DNA of 64,000 nucleotides from Nonomuraea guangzhouensis (GTDB lineage Bacteria > Actinomycetota > Actinomycetes > Streptosporangiales > Streptosporangiaceae). Within the stretch, counting starts at the first letter, position 1, and every line of letters begins with the position of its first letter. Both the position numbers and the translations under genes were made by a program. The notes under the pieces are model-generated. The model had not been told where the DNA came from, ran no database searches, and saw nothing but the letters and a program-made list of their open reading frames with translations. Of this stretch, positions 55,595 to 64,000 are shown in pieces. Location: positions 186,001 through 250,000 of the forward strand of contig NZ_JAHKRM010000020.1 in NCBI RefSeq assembly GCF_019396345.1, read 5' to 3'.

Positions 55595-56368
55595 ATGATT
55601 ACCGGATCGCGGGGCGCGCTGCCGCTCGTGGCGGCGCTCGCCGTGACGGCCGGCGTGCTCGCGCTGGCGGCGGTCGTCGTCCGCGCCCACTCCGCGAGCC
55701 CCGTCGCCGCTCCGGACCCCGGACCGGCGTTGCGGTGGGAGCCCGGCGCGTGCGTGCGCGGTTCCGCGGAGCGCTACGACCTGACGCCGTGCAACGGCGG
55801 CGACTCCGAGGTGGTCGCCGTGACCGCCGATCCGCCGGGTCCCGGCGCCTGCCCCGACGACGTCGACGACGTCCTGCGCATCGACGGAGGGCGCGCGGCC
55901 TGCGTACGCAACTTCCTCGACCCGCACCCCGGCGCGCCGGGCGGTGGCGGGGGAGTGCTCAGGCCGGGCGACTGCGTCGCGCTCGACGGCCGCGAGCGGC
56001 CGTGTTCCGAGTCCGGCTGGTACGGCAGAGCCGTCGCGCTCGTCCGTACACCGTCTAAATGCCCCGCGACCACCCTCGACACGCTCACCTTCGACCACGC
56101 GGCACCCGGCACGCTGACCGGCGACGCCGTGATCTGTCTCGGCGCCGGCGGCAAGGTGCTCGACCGGGGAATGTGCGTGGCCGAGCCGGGCCCCGGCGTG
56201 GTGACCAGGTCGGCGATCGACCGGGTCTCCTGCGCGTCGAAGAGGGCCTGGGCGCGGGTGGACGCCTTCGCCGAGTCCGCCGAAAGCTGCCCGGACGGCT
56301 CCGAGCGCTACCTGGAGGCTCGGGGCGCCTATCGTCCCGTGACCTGCCTGCGTCTTGTGAGCAAGTAA
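55595..56368 (+). CDS. Exported 12-cysteine protein
   Basis: A 257-residue protein with an N-terminal hydrophobic signal/anchor (about residues 8-28) and an extracytoplasmic part with twelve Cys, regularly in G-x-C or C-x-x-G contexts (GACVRG, PCNGG, GDCVAL, GMCVAE). Six disulphides are plausible. ATG 55595 is chosen because the signal begins there. No family recognised. Its stop codon TAA is part of the -10 box of ychF. Confidence 0.7.
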   Translation: MITGSRGALPLVAALAVTAGVLALAAVVVRAHSASPVAAPDPGPALRWEPGACVRGSAERYDLTPCNGGDSEVVAVTADPPGPGACPDDVDDVLRIDGGRAACVRNFLDPHPGAPGGGGGVLRPGDCVALDGRERPCSESGWYGRAVALVRTPSKCPATTLDTLTFDHAAPGTLTGDAVICLGAGGKVLDRGMCVAEPGPGVVTRSAIDRVSCASKRAWARVDAFAESAESCPDGSERYLEARGAYRPVTCLRLVSK

Positions 56369-56379
56369 ACTCGCCAAAC

Positions 56380-57456
56380 GTGAGTCTCTCCATTGGCATC
56401 GTCGGTCTGCCCAACGTCGGCAAGTCCACGCTCTTCAACGCGTTGACCAAGACCGGCAACGCCCTAGCCGCGAACTACCCGTTCGCCACCATCGAGCCCA
56501 ACGTGGGCATCGTGGGCGTGCCCGACGACCGCCTGCCCAAGCTGGCCGAGATCTTCTCCTCGGCCAAGGTGCTGCCCGCCAAGGTGGAGTTCGTCGACAT
56601 CGCGGGCCTGGTCAAGGGCGCGTCGGAGGGGCAGGGGCGGGGCAACCAGTTCCTCGCCAACATCCGCGACACCGACGCGATCTGCCAGGTGATCCGGGTC
56701 TTCACCGACCCCGACGTCACGCACGTCGACGGCGAGATCTCCCCCAAGCGCGACATCGAGACCATCAACACCGAGTTGATCATGGCCGACCTGCAGACGG
56801 TCGAGAAGGCCGTCCCGCGCCTGCAGAAGGAGGCGCGGCACAACAAGGACAAGAAGGCCGCGCTGGAGGCCGCCGAGGCCGCGCTGGCCGTGCTGGAGAC
56901 CGGCAAGACCATCTTCGAGAGCGGGCTCGACCGCGACGAGCTGCGCGAGCTCCACCTGCTGACGGCCAAGCCGTTCCTGTACGTGTTCAACCTCGACGCC
57001 GACGAGCTGATCGACTCGGCGCTCCGAGAGCAGCTCTCCACCCTTGTCGCCCCGGCCGAGGCGGTCTTCCTCGACGCCAAGATCGAGTCGGAGCTGGTGG
57101 AGCTCGACGACGAGGAGGCGCTGGAGCTGCTGCAGTCGGTGGGCCAGGAGGAGTCCGGCCTGTCGCAGCTGGCCAGGGTGGGCTTCGAGACGCTCGGCCT
57201 GCAGACCTACCTGACGGCCGGGCCCAAGGAGACCAGGGCCTGGACGATCCGCAAGGGCGCCACCGCCCCCGAGGCCGCCGGCGTGATCCACACCGACTTC
57301 CAGCGCGGCTTCATCAAGGCCGAGGTCGTGTCGTTCGACGACCTGGTCGAGGCGGGCTCGATCGCCAGCGCCCGCTCGGTGGGCAAGGCCCGCATCGAGG
57401 GCAAGGACTACGTCATGCGTGACGGTGACGTGGTGGAGTTCCGCTTTAACGTCTGA
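56380..57456 (+). CDS. ychF: Redox-responsive ATPase YchF
   Basis: An Obg-family P-loop NTPase that prefers ATP and binds ribosomes. The 358 residues have Walker A GLPNVGKST (9-17), FVDIAGLVKGASEGQGRGNQFL (switch II), the FNLDADE base-recognition loop, and a C-terminal TGS-like domain (RAWTIRKGATAPEAAGVIHTD). GTG 56380 follows TAAACT (56366-56371) by 8 nt, hence probably leaderless. Confidence 0.95.
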   Translation: MSLSIGIVGLPNVGKSTLFNALTKTGNALAANYPFATIEPNVGIVGVPDDRLPKLAEIFSSAKVLPAKVEFVDIAGLVKGASEGQGRGNQFLANIRDTDAICQVIRVFTDPDVTHVDGEISPKRDIETINTELIMADLQTVEKAVPRLQKEARHNKDKKAALEAAEAALAVLETGKTIFESGLDRDELRELHLLTAKPFLYVFNLDADELIDSALREQLSTLVAPAEAVFLDAKIESELVELDDEEALELLQSVGQEESGLSQLARVGFETLGLQTYLTAGPKETRAWTIRKGATAPEAAGVIHTDFQRGFIKAEVVSFDDLVEAGSIASARSVGKARIEGKDYVMRDGDVVEFRFNV

Positions 57457-57840: not shown

Positions 57841-58204
57841 GGGCGCGCCACGCACCAGGCCGCAGGCCCCTGAGGGGGTGTGCGGCCGTTCGCGTGCTAT
57901 ACCAATTCCGCAGGTCAAAGAGAGTCCATGGCTGCTTTGGACAGGAATCCATGGCCGCCGGGCTATGCCAATACCGGCCTCTGGCCTGGTCAAATGCCCA
58001 TTTGGCAGGGCAAATTGCAAGGGTTGGCGCTCCAGCGTGTCATGCGCACCTGGTTTGCCCATGGACGGCGATGCCTGCAGCATGGGCGTGGCTTTCCTGG
58101 AACAATGGCGGAGGCAGGTAGTGTGACTGCTTTACCGCAGATGATGGGGATCGGCAACGGACGACACCGCGCCAGCCCGGGGGATCGGCGCGAGCGGAGG
58201 CGTG
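57841..58204. other. Gap before the Tcp-like operon, with a hairpin
   Basis: A nested hairpin (GGCCGCA 57858-57864 with TGCGGCC 57881-57887, inner CCCC/GGGG) follows the small coiled-coil gene and may end its transcript. The rest is less GC-rich than average and should hold the promoter of the Tcp-like operon, but I could not place a convincing -35/-10 pair. Short frames here lack ribosome sites and family resemblance. Confidence 0.5.
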
Positions 58205-59221
58205 ATGGCTCGTAGGTCAACCGTCCAGCAGGGTCCTCGGATCCCTGGCGACCCCGAGCTTTCGGCACGCCAAGACATGGCCGATTTCGACGTGTCGCCT
58301 GCCCGCAGGCCGCGCCGTGGCGGCTGGTCGGGCGCCGGCGGGCGATGGCTGGTGTGGACCGGTCGCATCATTCTCTGGGCACTTATCGCAGTTATCGTGG
58401 TCAATGGGGTCCGTGCCCCATTTGAGAGGTTTACTCAGGGGAGCACGGCGACTCCGAATGAGGCGCCCGTGGCCAATCACGGATTCCCGGTCGACCGTGG
58501 CATGGCGTTCGCCGCCCAGTTCGCCGGCGTCTATCTGAATTTCAGTCCAGCCGACGCGCAGAGCAGGTCGGGCAAGCTGGCCGCGTTCCTGGCCGATGGC
58601 ATGGATCAGCAGATGGGCTGGGACGGCAACGGCAAGCTGGCCGCCGTCGCGATCCAGCCGTACGACATCGAGGCCACCGACGCCAACGACGCGATCGTCA
58701 CCGTGGCCTTCCAGACGGGCTCCCGCCGGATGATGCTGTCGGTCCCGATCTATTACTCGGCTGACGGCACCGGCAAGTTCGTCGTCTCCGGTCGGCCCGC
58801 GATACTGCCCGCACCGGGCCGGGCCGACCTGCCCCAGCTCGCCAAGCCCGAGAACGACGACGCCGTCGCCGCCGAGCTCAAGCCGCAGATGGAAGATTTC
58901 TTCAAGAACTACGGCTCGGGCGACACGACGGGCTTGCAGCGCTATGTCGCCGCAGGCAAGAGCATCGCGAGTTTCGGCGGGGCCTTCACCTTCGCCGAGC
59001 TCAAGGAGATCGTGGTGCCTGTGGGGGGCGCCACCAGGGAGATCCAGGTGGTCGTGGTGTGGAGCGTGCCCAACGGCGCGGCCCCGTCAGCCGACCCGAC
59101 TAGCACCGACCCCAACGCGGCCGGTGCCCGCCTGGAGCAGGCATATCGCCTCACCGTCGAGAAGCAGGGCGACAAATGGTACGTCGATGACATCCGCGGC
59201 GCCGGTCGGGCCGTTGGGTAG
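58205..59221 (+). CDS. TcpC-like conjugal transfer protein
   Basis: A 338-residue bitopic protein: cytosolic basic N terminus, one membrane helix (about 47-69), then an extracytoplasmic part of two NTF2-like halves (about 95-200 and 215-335) as in TcpC/VirB8-type scaffold proteins of Gram-positive conjugation systems. ATG 58205 has GGAGG 4 nt upstream; the GTG at 58202 is too close. First gene of the operon running to the end of the window. Confidence 0.8.
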   Translation: MARRSTVQQGPRIPGDPELSARQDMADFDVSPARRPRRGGWSGAGGRWLVWTGRIILWALIAVIVVNGVRAPFERFTQGSTATPNEAPVANHGFPVDRGMAFAAQFAGVYLNFSPADAQSRSGKLAAFLADGMDQQMGWDGNGKLAAVAIQPYDIEATDANDAIVTVAFQTGSRRMMLSVPIYYSADGTGKFVVSGRPAILPAPGRADLPQLAKPENDDAVAAELKPQMEDFFKNYGSGDTTGLQRYVAAGKSIASFGGAFTFAELKEIVVPVGGATREIQVVVVWSVPNGAAPSADPTSTDPNAAGARLEQAYRLTVEKQGDKWYVDDIRGAGRAVG

Positions 59222-59266
59222 ACGCACTCACGCACTGCTGATCGGTAACCCCGGGAGGACAAAGAA

Positions 59267-59548
59267 GTGATCTTGAAAACGATACTGCTCAACATGATCG
59301 AACTGGCGCCAACGCCCGCCCCCACCGGGATCGACTCCGCGGGGCTCGCCAACTTCCTGCGGGCCTTCTTCGCTCCGCTCTTCCTCGTCGTCGTATCCGT
59401 GGTCGCCCTCTTTTTCCTCTTCACGAGGGAGATCACGAGGTTCGTCCAGTTCCTCATCCTGGCCATCGCCATCGGCGTGATCTTCTACGTTCCCAACATC
59501 ATTGAGGTGACGGCGAAGGCAATCGCGGGAGCACTGGGCATCAAGTAA
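59267..59548 (+). CDS. Small two-helix membrane protein of the Tcp-like operon
   Basis: A 93-residue protein with two hydrophobic helices (about residues 32-52 and 58-80) joined by a short charged turn (TREITR). Size, topology and position between TcpC-like and TcpE-like genes recall TcpD or VirB2-type subunits. GTG 59267 follows GGGAGGA. Assignment rests on context. Confidence 0.7.
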   Translation: MILKTILLNMIELAPTPAPTGIDSAGLANFLRAFFAPLFLVVVSVVALFFLFTREITRFVQFLILAIAIGVIFYVPNIIEVTAKAIAGALGIK

Positions 59549-59604
59549 AGGGTTGAGACCGCTCAGGGGCGGTCATTGTACGAGCGGGTGGAGAGGAGGA
59601 CCGC

Positions 59605-62600
59605 GTGGACCTGCCCACGTATACCAATATTTGGCGAATCGAGAAGCGGCTCTACAAGCTGTACGACCTACGGCTGCCGATGCCGCTCCCCATCGTGTGG
59701 ATCGGCGTGTTCGTCGGCGTCCTGGCTCCATGGTCCCTGCTCCTCATGCTCGTGGGCATCCAATTTCACGCACCATGGCACGTGCTTTACCTGGTGCCGC
59801 CGGGCATCGTCACCTGGCTGTCCACCCGGCCGGTGATCGAGAACAAGCGCCTGACCGAGCTCCTGCAGTCGCAGCTGCGTTACGTGGGCGAGCCGCGGGC
59901 CTGGTGCCGGATGGCGCCGACGGCCGAGCCCGAGGTGATCACCTTCGCGGGCCGCGTCTGGCGGGTCACGCCCAAGCGGGCCAAGGCGCCACGCAAGGCG
60001 CGCCAGCCCCAGCGCAAGCGCCGCGCCGAGCTCGCCATCGCCGCCGAGTCCGTCGCCGGGACCAAACTGTCTGCCGCCGGGAGCAATCTGTCTGCCACCG
60101 GGACGAAGCCGGCTGTCGGCGCCGAGCCGGTGACCGGGCCGCGCCAGGTCCGCCCCGCGGTCGCGGCTGCCGCCGCGGCGGCGGCGCAGGCTCCGGTCGC
60201 GGAGTCCAGGCCCGCCCGTCCCGGCTGGGGCTCGGCCCCGCGCCGCGGCACCGCCCCCGCCCTGGGCGCCGACCTGGCTGCCCAGTCTGAGACCCCCACG
60301 AGCCCGGACAAGACACTCGCGATGGGCTCTCGGTCGTCGTCGGGGATGGGGTCGCGGGGAGGTACGCGGTCGGAGGGGACGCCTCTGGACGACTATGAGG
60401 TCCCTCAGGCGGACGAGCGGCGCCGGGGCGCCGCGGGGCGCGACGAAGTGCCGCGGACCGGGGGGCGGGGAGACTCGCCGGCCTCGGTTGTGCGCGGGAA
60501 GGGCGCGGCTCGGGAGGGCGTCTCTGACGTCGGCCGCATGGCTGGGTTCGTGCCGGGAGCTGACGAGTCGCAGGCCGTTCAGGAAGCGCACGCCGTACGG
60601 GAAACGCGGGAAGTACGAGGAACGCGAGAAGTACGAGAGACGCCGGTCGAGTCGCAGTCGCCGGAAGGGGCTGCGGAGGGCCGCAACGCGTCGCGTGTGG
60701 ACCGGCCCGCCGCGTCCGGGAAGCCGATCGACACGGAGGCACTCCGGCGGCTCCGCAAACTCGCCGCGAGCGCCGACACCCCGCCGCCCAGCGAGACAGC
60801 GCGCACCGAAGTGACGCGCGCGGACGCGGCCCGGGCAGAGACGGCGCGCGCGGATGCGACCCGCCAGGAGGCGGCGCGTGGTGAGGTTGCGCGCGCAGAA
60901 GCGACCCGTGCGGAGGTGACCCGCCAGGAGGCGGCGCAGGCTGAGGCGACCCGCCCGGAGACAGCGGGCTCGGAGACAGCGGGTCTGGAGGCGGCGCGCT
61001 CGGAGGCGACCCGTGCTGAGGTGACCCGCCAGGAGGTTGGGCGCGCAGAAGCGACGCATGCGGATGCGATCCCCCAGGAGGCGGCGCACGCTGAGGCGAC
61101 CCGCCCAGAGACAGCGGGCTCGGAGACAGCGGATCCGGAGGCGGCGCGCACTGAGGTGTTGCGCGGTGGAGTGGGGTCTCGGGATGTCGCGGCTGGTGGA
61201 GTCGTGGAGGAGGGGCGGCGAGCGGAGGCGGGCGGGTCCTCGGGTGAGGGGTCGCGGCAGGACGCGGGTGTTTCCGAGGAGGTTCGTGCGCCTGGGGCGG
61301 ACGAGGTGGCGCGTGATCAGCACCGGAAGGGGCAGCCGCCCAGGCAGGGCCCGTCGCTGGTGCTGCCGGACGCGCAACGGCTCTGGCCGCTCAGTCCCGA
61401 GGGCAAGCCGGTGCGGTTCATCCGGCCGGTGACGGGCGACGACGAGGCGCAGGAGACGGCTCCAGTTGGGCGCGACGAGCCCACGACCACCGCATCCGTC
61501 CACGAGATCGGCCCCGCCAGGAGCGAGCGGGCCCGTCAGGACGTCGGCCCCGCCAAGACCGAGAGGGCCGGTCAGGACGTCGGCCCCGCGAGGAGTGGGC
61601 GAGCCGGGTCGGATGCGAGTGAGCCCGGTAGGGCCGCAGCGTCCAGGGCCGAGCCGGCAGGAAGCGGGACGTTCGAGAGTGGGCCCGGTGAGAGGGAGCC
61701 GGGCGGGCGGGCGCCTGCGGCCAGGCAGGTCGCTCCGGGGCCCAAGCCTGGCGAACGGGTGCGGCGGGTCGAGTCCGTGGTGGGTCGCGACTCCGGTGGC
61801 TGGCGGCGGATCGCGCAGGTGGTCGTCGGTGGTGGCAATGTGCGGACCGACGGGTCGGAGGTCGACGAGGCCAGGGCGCGGGCGGTGTTCAGCGGCAGTC
61901 GCCGGGTCGTGGTGCTCGGCTGCACCGGCGGCGCCGGGCAGAGCACGACCGCGCTGATGCTGGGCCACACGTTCGCCACGTATCGCGACGACCGGGTCGT
62001 GGCCATCGACGCCAACACCGGCGGCAACACCCTGACCAGCAAGATCGAACCGGAGACCCCCGAGACGCTGGCCTCGCTGCTGTCCGGGCTCGACCGGGTC
62101 AGCGGCTATCTGACCATGCGGGGCTACACCACCCGCACCACGTCGGGGCTCGAGGTGATCGGCGCCGACACCGACGCGGGCGCCGAGCAGCGGCTGTCCG
62201 ACCGGACGCTGTTCTCCGACCATCGGCTGGGCCAGGTCATGCACCTGCTCGACCGGCACTACAAGCTGGCCGTCATGGATCCGGCCGCCGCGCTCGCGGC
62301 CCGCGTGCTGCCGTACGCCGACCAGCTGGTCCTGGTGGTCCCGGCGAGTGAGGAGGCGGCGGAGGCGGTGGCGATGACGTACGAGTGGCTCGACGGGCAC
62401 GGCTGCGCGGACCTGCGCAGGCGGGCGGTCATGGTGGTCAACGGCGTGAGCAGGCGTTCGATGGCCGACGTCGAGCAGGCGGAGTCGGTGGCCCGCGGCA
62501 GGTGCCGGGCCATCGTCAGGGTCCCCTGGGAGGACGACCTGGCGCCGGGTGGCGACGGGGTCGTCGATCCCGGGCAGTTGCGCGCGGCCGGGCGGCGGGC

Positions 62601-62712
62601 CTATCTCGCCCTCGCCGGGGTCGTGGTCGCGGGCTTTGCGGCAAAGACGGTCCGTCCGAGCGAAGAGGAGTTGGCGAGTGACCCCCCGGGCACGAGAATC
62701 GGTGAGCGATAA
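59605..62712 (+). CDS. TcpE-like membrane domain fused to a MinD/ParA-like domain through a repetitive linker
   Basis: A single uninterrupted frame of 1035 residues. Residues 1-130: TcpE-like, with two membrane helices (about 28-50 and 55-73). Residues about 130-740: disordered and charged, with a 50-residue repeat (bases 60895-61155). Residues about 765-1010: a MinD/ParA-like fold with VVLGCTGGAGQSTT, VVAIDANTGGNTL and LAVMDPAAAL. The Walker-A lysine is Gln779 and the ParA signature lysine is Thr, so ATP hydrolysis is doubtful. GTG 59605 has GGAGAGGAGGA upstream. Such a fusion would tie a cytosolic P-loop module to the membrane channel. Confidence 0.85.
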   Translation: MDLPTYTNIWRIEKRLYKLYDLRLPMPLPIVWIGVFVGVLAPWSLLLMLVGIQFHAPWHVLYLVPPGIVTWLSTRPVIENKRLTELLQSQLRYVGEPRAWCRMAPTAEPEVITFAGRVWRVTPKRAKAPRKARQPQRKRRAELAIAAESVAGTKLSAAGSNLSATGTKPAVGAEPVTGPRQVRPAVAAAAAAAAQAPVAESRPARPGWGSAPRRGTAPALGADLAAQSETPTSPDKTLAMGSRSSSGMGSRGGTRSEGTPLDDYEVPQADERRRGAAGRDEVPRTGGRGDSPASVVRGKGAAREGVSDVGRMAGFVPGADESQAVQEAHAVRETREVRGTREVRETPVESQSPEGAAEGRNASRVDRPAASGKPIDTEALRRLRKLAASADTPPPSETARTEVTRADAARAETARADATRQEAARGEVARAEATRAEVTRQEAAQAEATRPETAGSETAGLEAARSEATRAEVTRQEVGRAEATHADAIPQEAAHAEATRPETAGSETADPEAARTEVLRGGVGSRDVAAGGVVEEGRRAEAGGSSGEGSRQDAGVSEEVRAPGADEVARDQHRKGQPPRQGPSLVLPDAQRLWPLSPEGKPVRFIRPVTGDDEAQETAPVGRDEPTTTASVHEIGPARSERARQDVGPAKTERAGQDVGPARSGRAGSDASEPGRAAASRAEPAGSGTFESGPGEREPGGRAPAARQVAPGPKPGERVRRVESVVGRDSGGWRRIAQVVVGGGNVRTDGSEVDEARARAVFSGSRRVVVLGCTGGAGQSTTALMLGHTFATYRDDRVVAIDANTGGNTLTSKIEPETPETLASLLSGLDRVSGYLTMRGYTTRTTSGLEVIGADTDAGAEQRLSDRTLFSDHRLGQVMHLLDRHYKLAVMDPAAALAARVLPYADQLVLVVPASEEAAEAVAMTYEWLDGHGCADLRRRAVMVVNGVSRRSMADVEQAESVARGRCRAIVRVPWEDDLAPGGDGVVDPGQLRAAGRRAYLALAGVVVAGFAAKTVRPSEEELASDPPGTRIGER
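60895..61155 (+). repeat. 150-bp coding repeat in the TcpE-MinD linker
   Basis: Two copies, 60895-61044 and 61045 to about 61155 (second one incomplete), encode a 50-residue unit containing AEATRPETAGSETA. Inside each unit a five-residue rhythm of the xEATR/AEVTR kind continues, starting already near 60800. Confidence 0.75.
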
Positions 62713-62759
62713 GTGAACGTGCGAGCAGGTCTGACTTGTTCATGCGCCGAGGGGGCGGC

Positions 62760-64000
62760 ATGAGCAGGGCGTCACGAGCGCATCAGCGCCTGGCGGTCCG
62801 CTATTTCGACGACCGCATCCTGCTCACCAACACCTCCGCATGGGCGTATTTCCGCCTTCCGACGGTCAGCTATGAGTTCGTCACGCCCGAAGAGCGTGAG
62901 GCGCTGGCCACCAACATCACGATCGCGCTGGCCACGATCAGGATGCCCGACGCCGAGGTCCACCTGAGGGTCGCGCACCGCACCTATCCCGCGGCCGAAT
63001 GGGCGATGGCGCTCAACGCCACCTCCGACGAGGGGTCGGGCTGGCGCGACTATCTGGAGGAGATGTACCGGCACGTCTGGGCCAAGGACTTCTGGTCCAA
63101 GGAGGTCTATCTCGGCGTCCGCCTCGGCCCTCGGGGCAAGCAGATGGGCGACGGCGTGTTCTCGCAGCTCTTCGGCTTCTACCAGCGTACGGAGAAGGCG
63201 CTCGGGATCGAGGACGACCATGTGCCGGACAGCGAGATCGGCAGATGGACCGAACAGGCCGAACGCCTGGGCCGGGCGCTCGCGTCCAGCGCCCTCTACG
63301 CCAGGCACGCCACCTCCGTTGAGGTGGCGTGGCTGTTCCAGCACTCGGCCGCGGGCGCGCTCGGTGACCCGCCGCCGTCGGCGAGCCCGAAGCGGCGCTG
63401 GGGCAAGGGCGAGATCGAGTCGCTGGTCGAGGGTGAGATCCACAACGGCAGGTCGCTGCTGCGCATCGTGCAGCCGCAGGGCGACTCCTATGTCGCGCAG
63501 CTGTCGTTCGCCCGCTTCCCGGACATCATGCCGTTCCCGGACGGCGAGCCGTGGTTGCACTTCGCCGACCAACTGCCCTTCCCCGTCGAGGTCTCGTCGC
63601 GGATGCGGCTCATCCCGCCGGTCAAGGCGTCGAAGGACGTCGCGCGCAAGCTCGCGCACGCGCGCGACATGGACATCCACATCCGCGAGGCCGGCGCCGA
63701 GGCGCCGCTCGCGCTGGCCGAGCAGATCGACGCGGCCCGCATGCTGGAGCACGGCATCACGAAGGAACGACTGCCCTTCGTGTACGGCTGGCACCGGCTG
63801 ATCGTGTCGGCCCCGACCGAGGACATGTGCGTCCAGCGGGTCGAAGCGGTCGTCGAGCACTACCGTGACATGGGCATCGACGTGGTCAACTCGACCGGTG
63901 ACCAGTTCTCGCTGTTCTGCGAGGCGCTGCCGGGGGAGAAGGTCAGGGTCAACGCCTATGCCCAGCGGCAGCCGCTGCGGACGATCGCCGGCGGTATGGC
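62760..64000 (+). CDS. VirB4/TcpF-like ATPase, 5' part
   Basis: Open to the end of the window with no stop; at least 413 residues. It starts MSRASRAHQRLAVRYFDDRILL and continues through a large N-terminal alpha/beta region (AWAYFRLPTVSYEF, FARFPDIMPFPDGEP) like that of conjugation ATPases of the VirB4/TcpF and SCO6880-related groups. The Walker motifs would lie beyond the window. ATG 62760 is used; ATG 62742 is in frame. It follows the fusion gene by 47 nt in the same operon. Confidence 0.75.
   Translation, partial: MSRASRAHQRLAVRYFDDRILLTNTSAWAYFRLPTVSYEFVTPEEREALATNITIALATIRMPDAEVHLRVAHRTYPAAEWAMALNATSDEGSGWRDYLEEMYRHVWAKDFWSKEVYLGVRLGPRGKQMGDGVFSQLFGFYQRTEKALGIEDDHVPDSEIGRWTEQAERLGRALASSALYARHATSVEVAWLFQHSAAGALGDPPPSASPKRRWGKGEIESLVEGEIHNGRSLLRIVQPQGDSYVAQLSFARFPDIMPFPDGEPWLHFADQLPFPVEVSSRMRLIPPVKASKDVARKLAHARDMDIHIREAGAEAPLALAEQIDAARMLEHGITKERLPFVYGWHRLIVSAPTEDMCVQRVEAVVEHYRDMGIDVVNSTGDQFSLFCEALPGEKVRVNAYAQRQPLRTIAGGM

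Follow-up and report, generated by a model that had tools for sequence, protein, structure and literature searches.

A resident type IV secretion-like operon with a fused MinD-type domain in Nonomuraea guangzhouensis

Gene content of the operon and the TcpE::MinD fusion

The stretch of DNA analysed here, referred to as the window, comprises 64,000 nucleotides of the actinomycete Nonomuraea guangzhouensis (positions 186001-250000 of contig NZ_JAHKRM010000020.1, our C41), and its last part carries genes resembling components of conjugation systems. An earlier note had described TcpC-like, small two-helix, TcpE-like and VirB4/TcpF-like genes in that order directly after the housekeeping gene ychF, and had asked whether they belong to an integrative conjugative element (ICE) or to a resident type IV-like secretion system. 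The contig runs 11,965 bases past the window end, and we read on to position 75965 in window numbering. The genes are the first part of a seven-gene operon, putatively a single transcription unit, which begins at position 58202 and extends beyond 64000 to about 69239. Its order is TcpC (VirB8-like), a TcpD-like protein, TcpE (VirB3-like) fused to a MinD-type domain (TcpE::MinD), VirB4/TcpF, VirB6, a second VirB8-like protein and a transglycosylase/NlpC-P60 hydrolase (table 1).

Open reading frame (ORF) calls and profile matches agree on the four codirectional genes and their order, and the assignments of the first as TcpC-like and the fourth as VirB4/TcpF-like both hold; TcpC is the sole PF12642 match in the whole genome. 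The small second gene stands by its position, its likeness to TcpD being weak (16.1 bits against an NCBIfam equivalog cut-off of 100). The TcpF cut-off was likewise not reached (238.4 of 1100 bits), and the VirB4/TcpF and TcpD-like proteins are relatives of these two models without belonging to them. For the third gene the TcpE assignment stood but was incomplete, as the protein ends in a ParA/MinD-type domain that had been missed, and the operon does follow ychF, with one small ORF in between.

The motor motifs of VirB4 (Walker A GEPGGGKT and Walker B IFLDEAW) are intact in 117 of 117 resident loci, made up of a first set of 37 and of the best 80 of 262 relatives found in a scan of named loci; the two sets may share some genomes. 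For the 209-residue protein, a relative from Nonomuraea roseoviolacea was modelled with a predicted local distance difference test score (pLDDT) of 86.2, and the model matched DotI (Z-score 13.3; 2.8 Å over 125 residues), VirB8 (Z-score 12.6) and PrgL (Z-score 12.2). The operon therefore holds two VirB8-like parts. The motif [FY]DCSG, presumably the catalytic cysteine motif of NlpC/P60, is present in the hydrolase of 69 of 88 loci. Equivalents of VirB1 (the SLT and NlpC/P60 hydrolase), VirB3, VirB4 and VirB6 are thus retained alongside the two VirB8-like parts, and the channel part of a Gram-positive Tcp/Con-type type IV secretion system (T4SS), namely TcpC/VirB8, TcpE/VirB3, VirB6 and a wall hydrolase, lies within this one operon. 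Contamination of the genome is estimated at 7.02%; the operon surroundings nonetheless match those of relatives.

Table 1. Features at the locus, in window numbering (aa, amino acids; E, E-value).
Feature	Position	Strand	Basis and remarks
ychF	56059-57456		upstream of operon
ORF, 99 aa	57541-57840		between ychF and TcpC; no Pfam match; 78% identical in Nonomuraea gerenzanensis
Promoter-like element TGGAAC-N15-TAGTGT	58098-58124	+	conserved upstream of TcpC, start of leader; putative promoter
Leader stretch with stem CGCGCC/GGCGCG	58168-58200	+	conserved; stem directly 5' of GGAGG ribosome-binding site
TcpC, VirB8-like cell-wall/membrane subunit, 339 aa	58202-59221	+	PF12642 E 1.5e-16; alternative start ATG 58205
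Small two-helix membrane protein, TcpD-like, 93 aa	59267-59548	+	NCBIfam TcpD E 0.0098, weak; position between TcpC and TcpE conserved in relatives
TcpE::MinD fusion, 1035 aa	59605-62712	+	one open frame
TcpE (VirB3-like) membrane domain of fusion	59617-59913	+	PF12648 E 8e-21, residues 5-103
15-nucleotide repeat units in Ala/Arg/Gly/Glu/Pro-rich linker of fusion	60770-61174	+	repeat family D1; composition
ParA/MinD-fold domain of fusion	61759-62709	+	CbiA E 3.8e-4 (below cut-off); AlphaFold2 model; structure match to Soj
Degenerate Walker A LGCTGGAGQS in MinD domain	61915-61944	+	both ParA/MinD lysines replaced
VirB4/TcpF ATPase, 834 aa	62736-65240 (N-terminal part 62736-64000 in window)	+	PF12846 E 8.2e-67; NCBIfam TcpF E 1.2e-70
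VirB6/TrbL	65237-67510		PF04610 E 1.1e-9; NCBIfam CD3337/EF1877 family E 2.3e-22, below its cut-off
Second VirB8-like protein, 209 aa	67513-68142		no Pfam family; structure model of a relative
SLT + NlpC/P60 hydrolase	68139-69239		lytic transglycosylase and NlpC/P60 domains; P60 E 3.3e-19

In the third ORF the TcpE domain is followed by a long, low-complexity, repetitive linker and then by the C-terminal ParA/MinD-type domain. This domain was modelled with AlphaFold2 from an alignment of 48 copies (mean pLDDT 85.0), and the predicted structure has a ParA/MinD fold, matching Soj with a Z-score of 23.4 (2.8 Å over 231 residues), MinD with 22.5 and the Eubacterium rectale chain 3fkq, which we take to be TadZ, with 18.6. 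Both Walker A lysines are replaced in 37/37 loci of the first set and in 80/80 named loci, hence in all 117, where the motif reads LGC[T/S/A]G[G/S]AGQ[T/S]; the deviant two-lysine form (KGGxGK) occurs in none of them. The nucleotide motif is thus degenerate in every resident copy, and the domain apparently inactivated. Another 20 family genomes, selected for their long contigs (L097-L116), all have TcpE and MinD fused, and the two share one frame in 60 of the 64 named loci in which both could be identified. In the remaining four the two overlap in different frames, perhaps because the assembly is wrong there or because the repetitive linker truly carries a frameshift; TcpE/MinD of locus L038 also reads as split.

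Distribution, residency and mobility parts

VirB4 was sought in a class-wide draw of 197 genomes and a family-wide draw of 100 genomes from the window's own family (f1). Class-wide, 22 genomes matched at an E-value of 1e-20, 16 of them from f1 with the window's genome included; the other 15 f1 proteins were 77-94% identical, those of the six from other families only about 30%. Within the family, VirB4 was present in 98/100 genomes at 74-94% identity, covering 67 of 68 genera and all 86 good-quality genomes, the two genomes with no match being 74% and 67% complete. A second VirB4-like match was seen in seven of the 100 (six at 25-29% identity, one a fragment).

In the synteny comparison that the earlier note had called for, all seven genes occur in the same order in each of the 20 further family genomes, with ychF inside the fetched flank in 12. 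The best 80 of the 262 relatives include Nocardiopsis, Streptomonospora, Thermobifida, Actinomadura, Spirillospora, Microbispora, Planotetraspora, Nonomuraea and others, and span the NCBI families Nocardiopsidaceae, Thermomonosporaceae and Streptosporangiaceae plus one record named Glycomyces fuscus. All modules were found in 46 of these 80 loci, in order and on one strand in every case; the other 34 either end at a contig end (21) or are interrupted (13). Of the 80 loci, 39 have ychF upstream and 19 have a succinate dehydrogenase-type flavoprotein gene, reversed, downstream, surroundings that recur in many genera. Genes are inserted within the operon in the Nocardiopsis-type loci L035, L039, L041, L092 and L094; L035 and L041 carry several kilobases between VirB4 and VirB6, and the gap between TcpE::MinD and VirB4 holds an oppositely oriented ORF for a PhyH-family oxygenase (identity from L035).

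A VirB4 tree, built by a quick method and with long branches (its row L045 is a wrongly chosen short ORF), largely tracks host families, and the window protein groups with Nonomuraea. The record titled Glycomyces fuscus TRM 49117 (L134) groups with Nocardiopsis alborubida, and its name may be wrong. Three Nocardiopsis plasmids sit beside the residents in this tree, which does not settle the direction of derivation.

These plasmids (NZ_CP099838, NZ_CP080600 and NZ_CP074136) carry the same subtype, sharing TcpC, TcpD, TcpE, MinD, VirB6 and SLT with the window operon and having VirB4 proteins 70-73% identical to it; two of the three VirB4 proteins are identical to each other. They differ from the operon in that their genes lie in two divergent blocks and in that MinD is encoded on its own, with neither Walker A lysine replaced (IKGGVGKTT). 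Annotation of the N. exhalans plasmid lists a VirD4-like protein and a MobF relaxase, although all three plasmids are typed as non-mobilizable by PLSDB. Two Bacillota plasmid operons (L205 and L206, by annotation) match the window operon in the types of their subunits and in how these are ordered: a TcpC-position protein, a small protein, TcpE, VirB4, an extra small protein, a VirB6-position protein, a protein of about 210 residues and a lytic transglycosylase/C40 protein. In front of these stand a DUF87 coupling-type protein and a replication-relaxation protein, both of which the window operon lacks. Compared with Tcp/Con-type conjugation systems, which we take to be typified by the tcp genes of pCW3 and the con genes of ICEBs1, the window operon is chromosomal and family-wide and has gained a fused MinD.

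The match in gene content and order to Bacillota plasmid operons, together with the Nocardiopsis plasmids, speaks for an ICE or its decaying remnant. We nonetheless reject this explanation as very improbable, given the family-wide syntenic presence and the strong conservation of VirB4. Nor does the contig carry any of the genome's 33 tyrosine integrase matches (serine integrases were not searched for), and the check for flanking repeats returned neither a direct repeat nor a tRNA gene in window positions 57001-75965, the upstream side beyond ychF not having been scanned for repeats.

Reading past position 64000, as the earlier note had advised, yielded the NlpC/P60 hydrolase that it had named as one of the things to look for; a coupling ATPase is not among the operon genes, nor is a relaxase found with them. 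Searches of the genome with TraG-D_C and with the VirD4-like protein of the N. exhalans plasmid were empty, as was an FtsK/TcpA-type search with one plasmid FtsK-type protein, for which there was no positive control. No relaxase was met with the channel genes, the genome's only TrwC match lying on another contig, C34 (other relaxase families were not searched genome-wide). That match (C34:192536-193660, in a frame of 1366 residues) shares its contig with two tyrosine-integrase matches, and the region is probably a separate mobile element. On family-wide presence, conserved order and surroundings, a contig free of tyrosine integrase matches and the lack of a linked coupling protein or relaxase, we answer the earlier question in favour of residency: the operon is a resident type IV-like apparatus with no linked DNA-loading parts.

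A resident apparatus could still move DNA. The archaeal Ced system is likewise conjugation machinery taken over by the chromosome, and in the available part of PMC9905601 such domesticated machinery is described as moving cellular DNA; it differs in belonging to another domain of life and in that cellular DNA transfer is described there, such transfer being only a candidate role here. That a comparable machine operates here, passing cellular DNA from one hypha or cell to another by export or import and loaded by FtsK or an unlinked ATPase, strikes us as unlikely. Its parts are those of conjugation systems, and the same VirB4 subtype occurs on a Nocardiopsis plasmid whose annotation includes a VirD4-like protein and a MobF relaxase, but the loader searches were empty and neither the VirD4 type nor the TrwC relaxase is conserved in the family, each being found in 19 of 61 genomes (VirD4-like homologues not in the window's).

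Downstream of the hydrolase lie a NUDIX protein gene and genes for two long low-complexity proteins (612 and 452 residues; window positions 69692-72963) with no Pfam families, followed on the opposite strand by genes for a short-chain dehydrogenase, an LCM methyltransferase and a TetR protein. The 452-residue protein (TM452) is present on the Streptosporangiaceae side (Nonomuraea/Microbispora), and the 612-residue protein varies fast. The operon might be a protein secretion system that exports proteins, perhaps these two, across the envelope, as is reported of one Streptococcus suis system, although we regard this as quite doubtful. It would fit the retention of core channel and wall hydrolase without DNA-processing genes and the position of TM452 after the operon in Nonomuraea and Microbispora, and the accessible part of a review (PMC12857230) describes one Gram-positive effector-exporting case. 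Set against this, neither of the two was detected in genomes of Nocardiopsis type, a coupling protein is absent and the candidate substrates are putative.

Proposed role and comparison with Tad and Cmd systems

We favour, with moderate confidence, the view that the operon encodes a domesticated, chromosomally fixed, T4SS-like envelope machine that is docked by its MinD domain and most likely serves hyphal development rather than plasmid transfer. The mobility parts have been lost and an altered positioning domain has been fused, and the machine has therefore probably been recruited to serve the cell itself, for instance in hyphal growth or sporulation. All 86 good-quality family genomes drawn keep this machine, whose DNA-loading parts are gone and to which the altered domain is fused. 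VirB4 would power the assembly of, or transport through, a VirB6/VirB8 membrane channel, for which the SLT and NlpC/P60 hydrolase would open the peptidoglycan. The MinD-like domain, on its long flexible linker, may not cycle ATP and could act as a fixed docking or positioning module, placing the machine at the hyphal tip, the septum or a chromosome-bound partner. A more specific proposal, which we put forward only tentatively, is that a catalytically dead MinD tethered to VirB3/TcpE ties a family-wide T4SS-like channel, which has no linked coupling protein, to the polarity of the cell or the position of its chromosome while hyphae develop. If true, a Gram-positive type IV system would here have a task of a new kind and would be positioned in a new way.

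By analogy, TadZ may serve as a model for the MinD part, as a polar recruiting hub: the available part of PMC6668835 describes it as a MinD-family protein with an atypical Walker A motif that is polar and recruits Tad pilus parts. The likeness to TadZ/CpaE lies in the ParA/MinD fold, the atypical Walker A and the attachment to a membrane machine; in contrast, the window domain is fused to VirB3/TcpE of a T4SS-like system and is no part of a Tad pilus, and the two are related at superfamily level only.

The suggested task, which may involve aerial growth, septation and chromosome segregation, rests on analogy with the Streptomyces Cmd system (cmdA-F, SCO4126-4131), which resembles the operon in being resident and in combining a VirB4-like ATPase with membrane partners. 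According to the accessible part of a study in S. coelicolor (PMC2782261), deletion of cmdB disturbs aerial hyphae, septation and chromosome segregation, and the cmdB and cmdA-F deletions give aberrant branching, poor septation and 8% and 6% anucleate spores, respectively. The same text reports that plasmid transfer in the whole-cluster mutant was not significantly different (data not shown in that paper) and that deletion of cmdA alone caused no apparent sporulation defect. SCO4132, a putative transglycosylase gene, is numbered next to cmd, and its mutants are described as alike in antibiotic production in the available part of PMC6585502.

CmdB was found in 41/41 genomes of family f18 at 83-97% identity, and its relatives in the plasmid collection were all under 60% identical. 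Family f18 is taken to be Streptomycetaceae, and its gene cmdB, from published primers and gene order: in 4/4 f18 loci, two cmdB mutagenesis primers (PMC2782261, seen in part) matched 24-30 of 31 bases at about codons 408-410 and 26-27 of 31 at about codons 85-87, compared with only 18-19 of 31 for the other strand of each. Pfam returned nothing for a Streptomyces ORF lying upstream (L081, 3277-4680), which was therefore not called TgdA. Cmd differs from the window operon in that CmdA has a TraG-D_C match and no MinD match was found among the Cmd proteins scanned. SCO6880/CmdC had no match in the window's genome, and only two f1 genomes (G037 and G121) exceeded the cut-off in that draw. With Cmd in f18 and a non-orthologous operon in f1, two filamentous actinomycete families each keep a different widespread VirB4-type machine, which suggests that filamentous actinomycetes have co-opted conjugation machinery more than once. 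Family f17 has another kind of SCO6880-type operon, apparently resident too and related to Cmd (L085-L088; CmdC E 2e-23, CmdB E 2.6e-34), with similar surroundings in several genomes.

A number of observations weigh against a developmental role for a MinD-docked machine. TadZ with its atypical Walker A still binds ATP. Orthology with Cmd was rejected, as profile comparison links only VirB4 and CmdB, and weakly (probability 23.6%, E 8.6e-4), the other Cmd and operon proteins giving no significant link. FtsK or another ATPase could act in trans as coupling protein. Thirteen Nocardiopsis loci, with about 9-10 kb available downstream, lack at least one of VirB6, the 209-residue protein and the hydrolase in that stretch; the operon therefore need not stay compact, and the missing modules agree with the inserted genes of L035 and L041. 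The [FY]DCSG motif was not found in the hydrolase of 19 of the 88 loci, some of which are perhaps cut. Whi/Bld-type motifs were not found upstream of the operon except for the common GACAC. Finally, a literature search, with limited coverage of subscription journals, gave no experiment on this operon.

The leader upstream of TcpC

About 100-160 bases preceding TcpC (window 58040-58205) are conserved across Streptosporangiaceae, including Nonomuraea, Microbispora, Planotetraspora and others; compared with the window leader, 50 of 99 upstream regions were listed at an E-value of 1 or better. Nocardiopsis leaders gave no match beyond chance, the only listing under that name being a chance 13 bases. 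Thirty-nine leaders picked by similarity to that of the window were aligned, and after exclusion of nine rows (seven Actinomadura-type, L163 and L097) 21 distinct rows were folded. The 6-bp stem is invariant in these 21 rows, so covariation neither supports nor refutes an RNA structure; the excluded rows L163 and L097 deviate from the stem. The alifold energy was below that of all 100 column shuffles, a result that says little because the alignment is so conserved. A riboswitch was rejected, as Rfam gave no match at the leader and two hits below gathering scores elsewhere. A 16-base core of the leader occurs exactly once in the genome, and it was rejected as a regulon motif on this single exact site and because a search tolerating up to one mismatch gave 11 sites, fewer than the 22 of a reversed control. 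In relatives the promoter-like pair mostly has a spacing of N16 and TAGGGT or TAGGCT as its second element, and the last approximately 40 bases of the leader are also conserved in several Actinomadura-type genomes.

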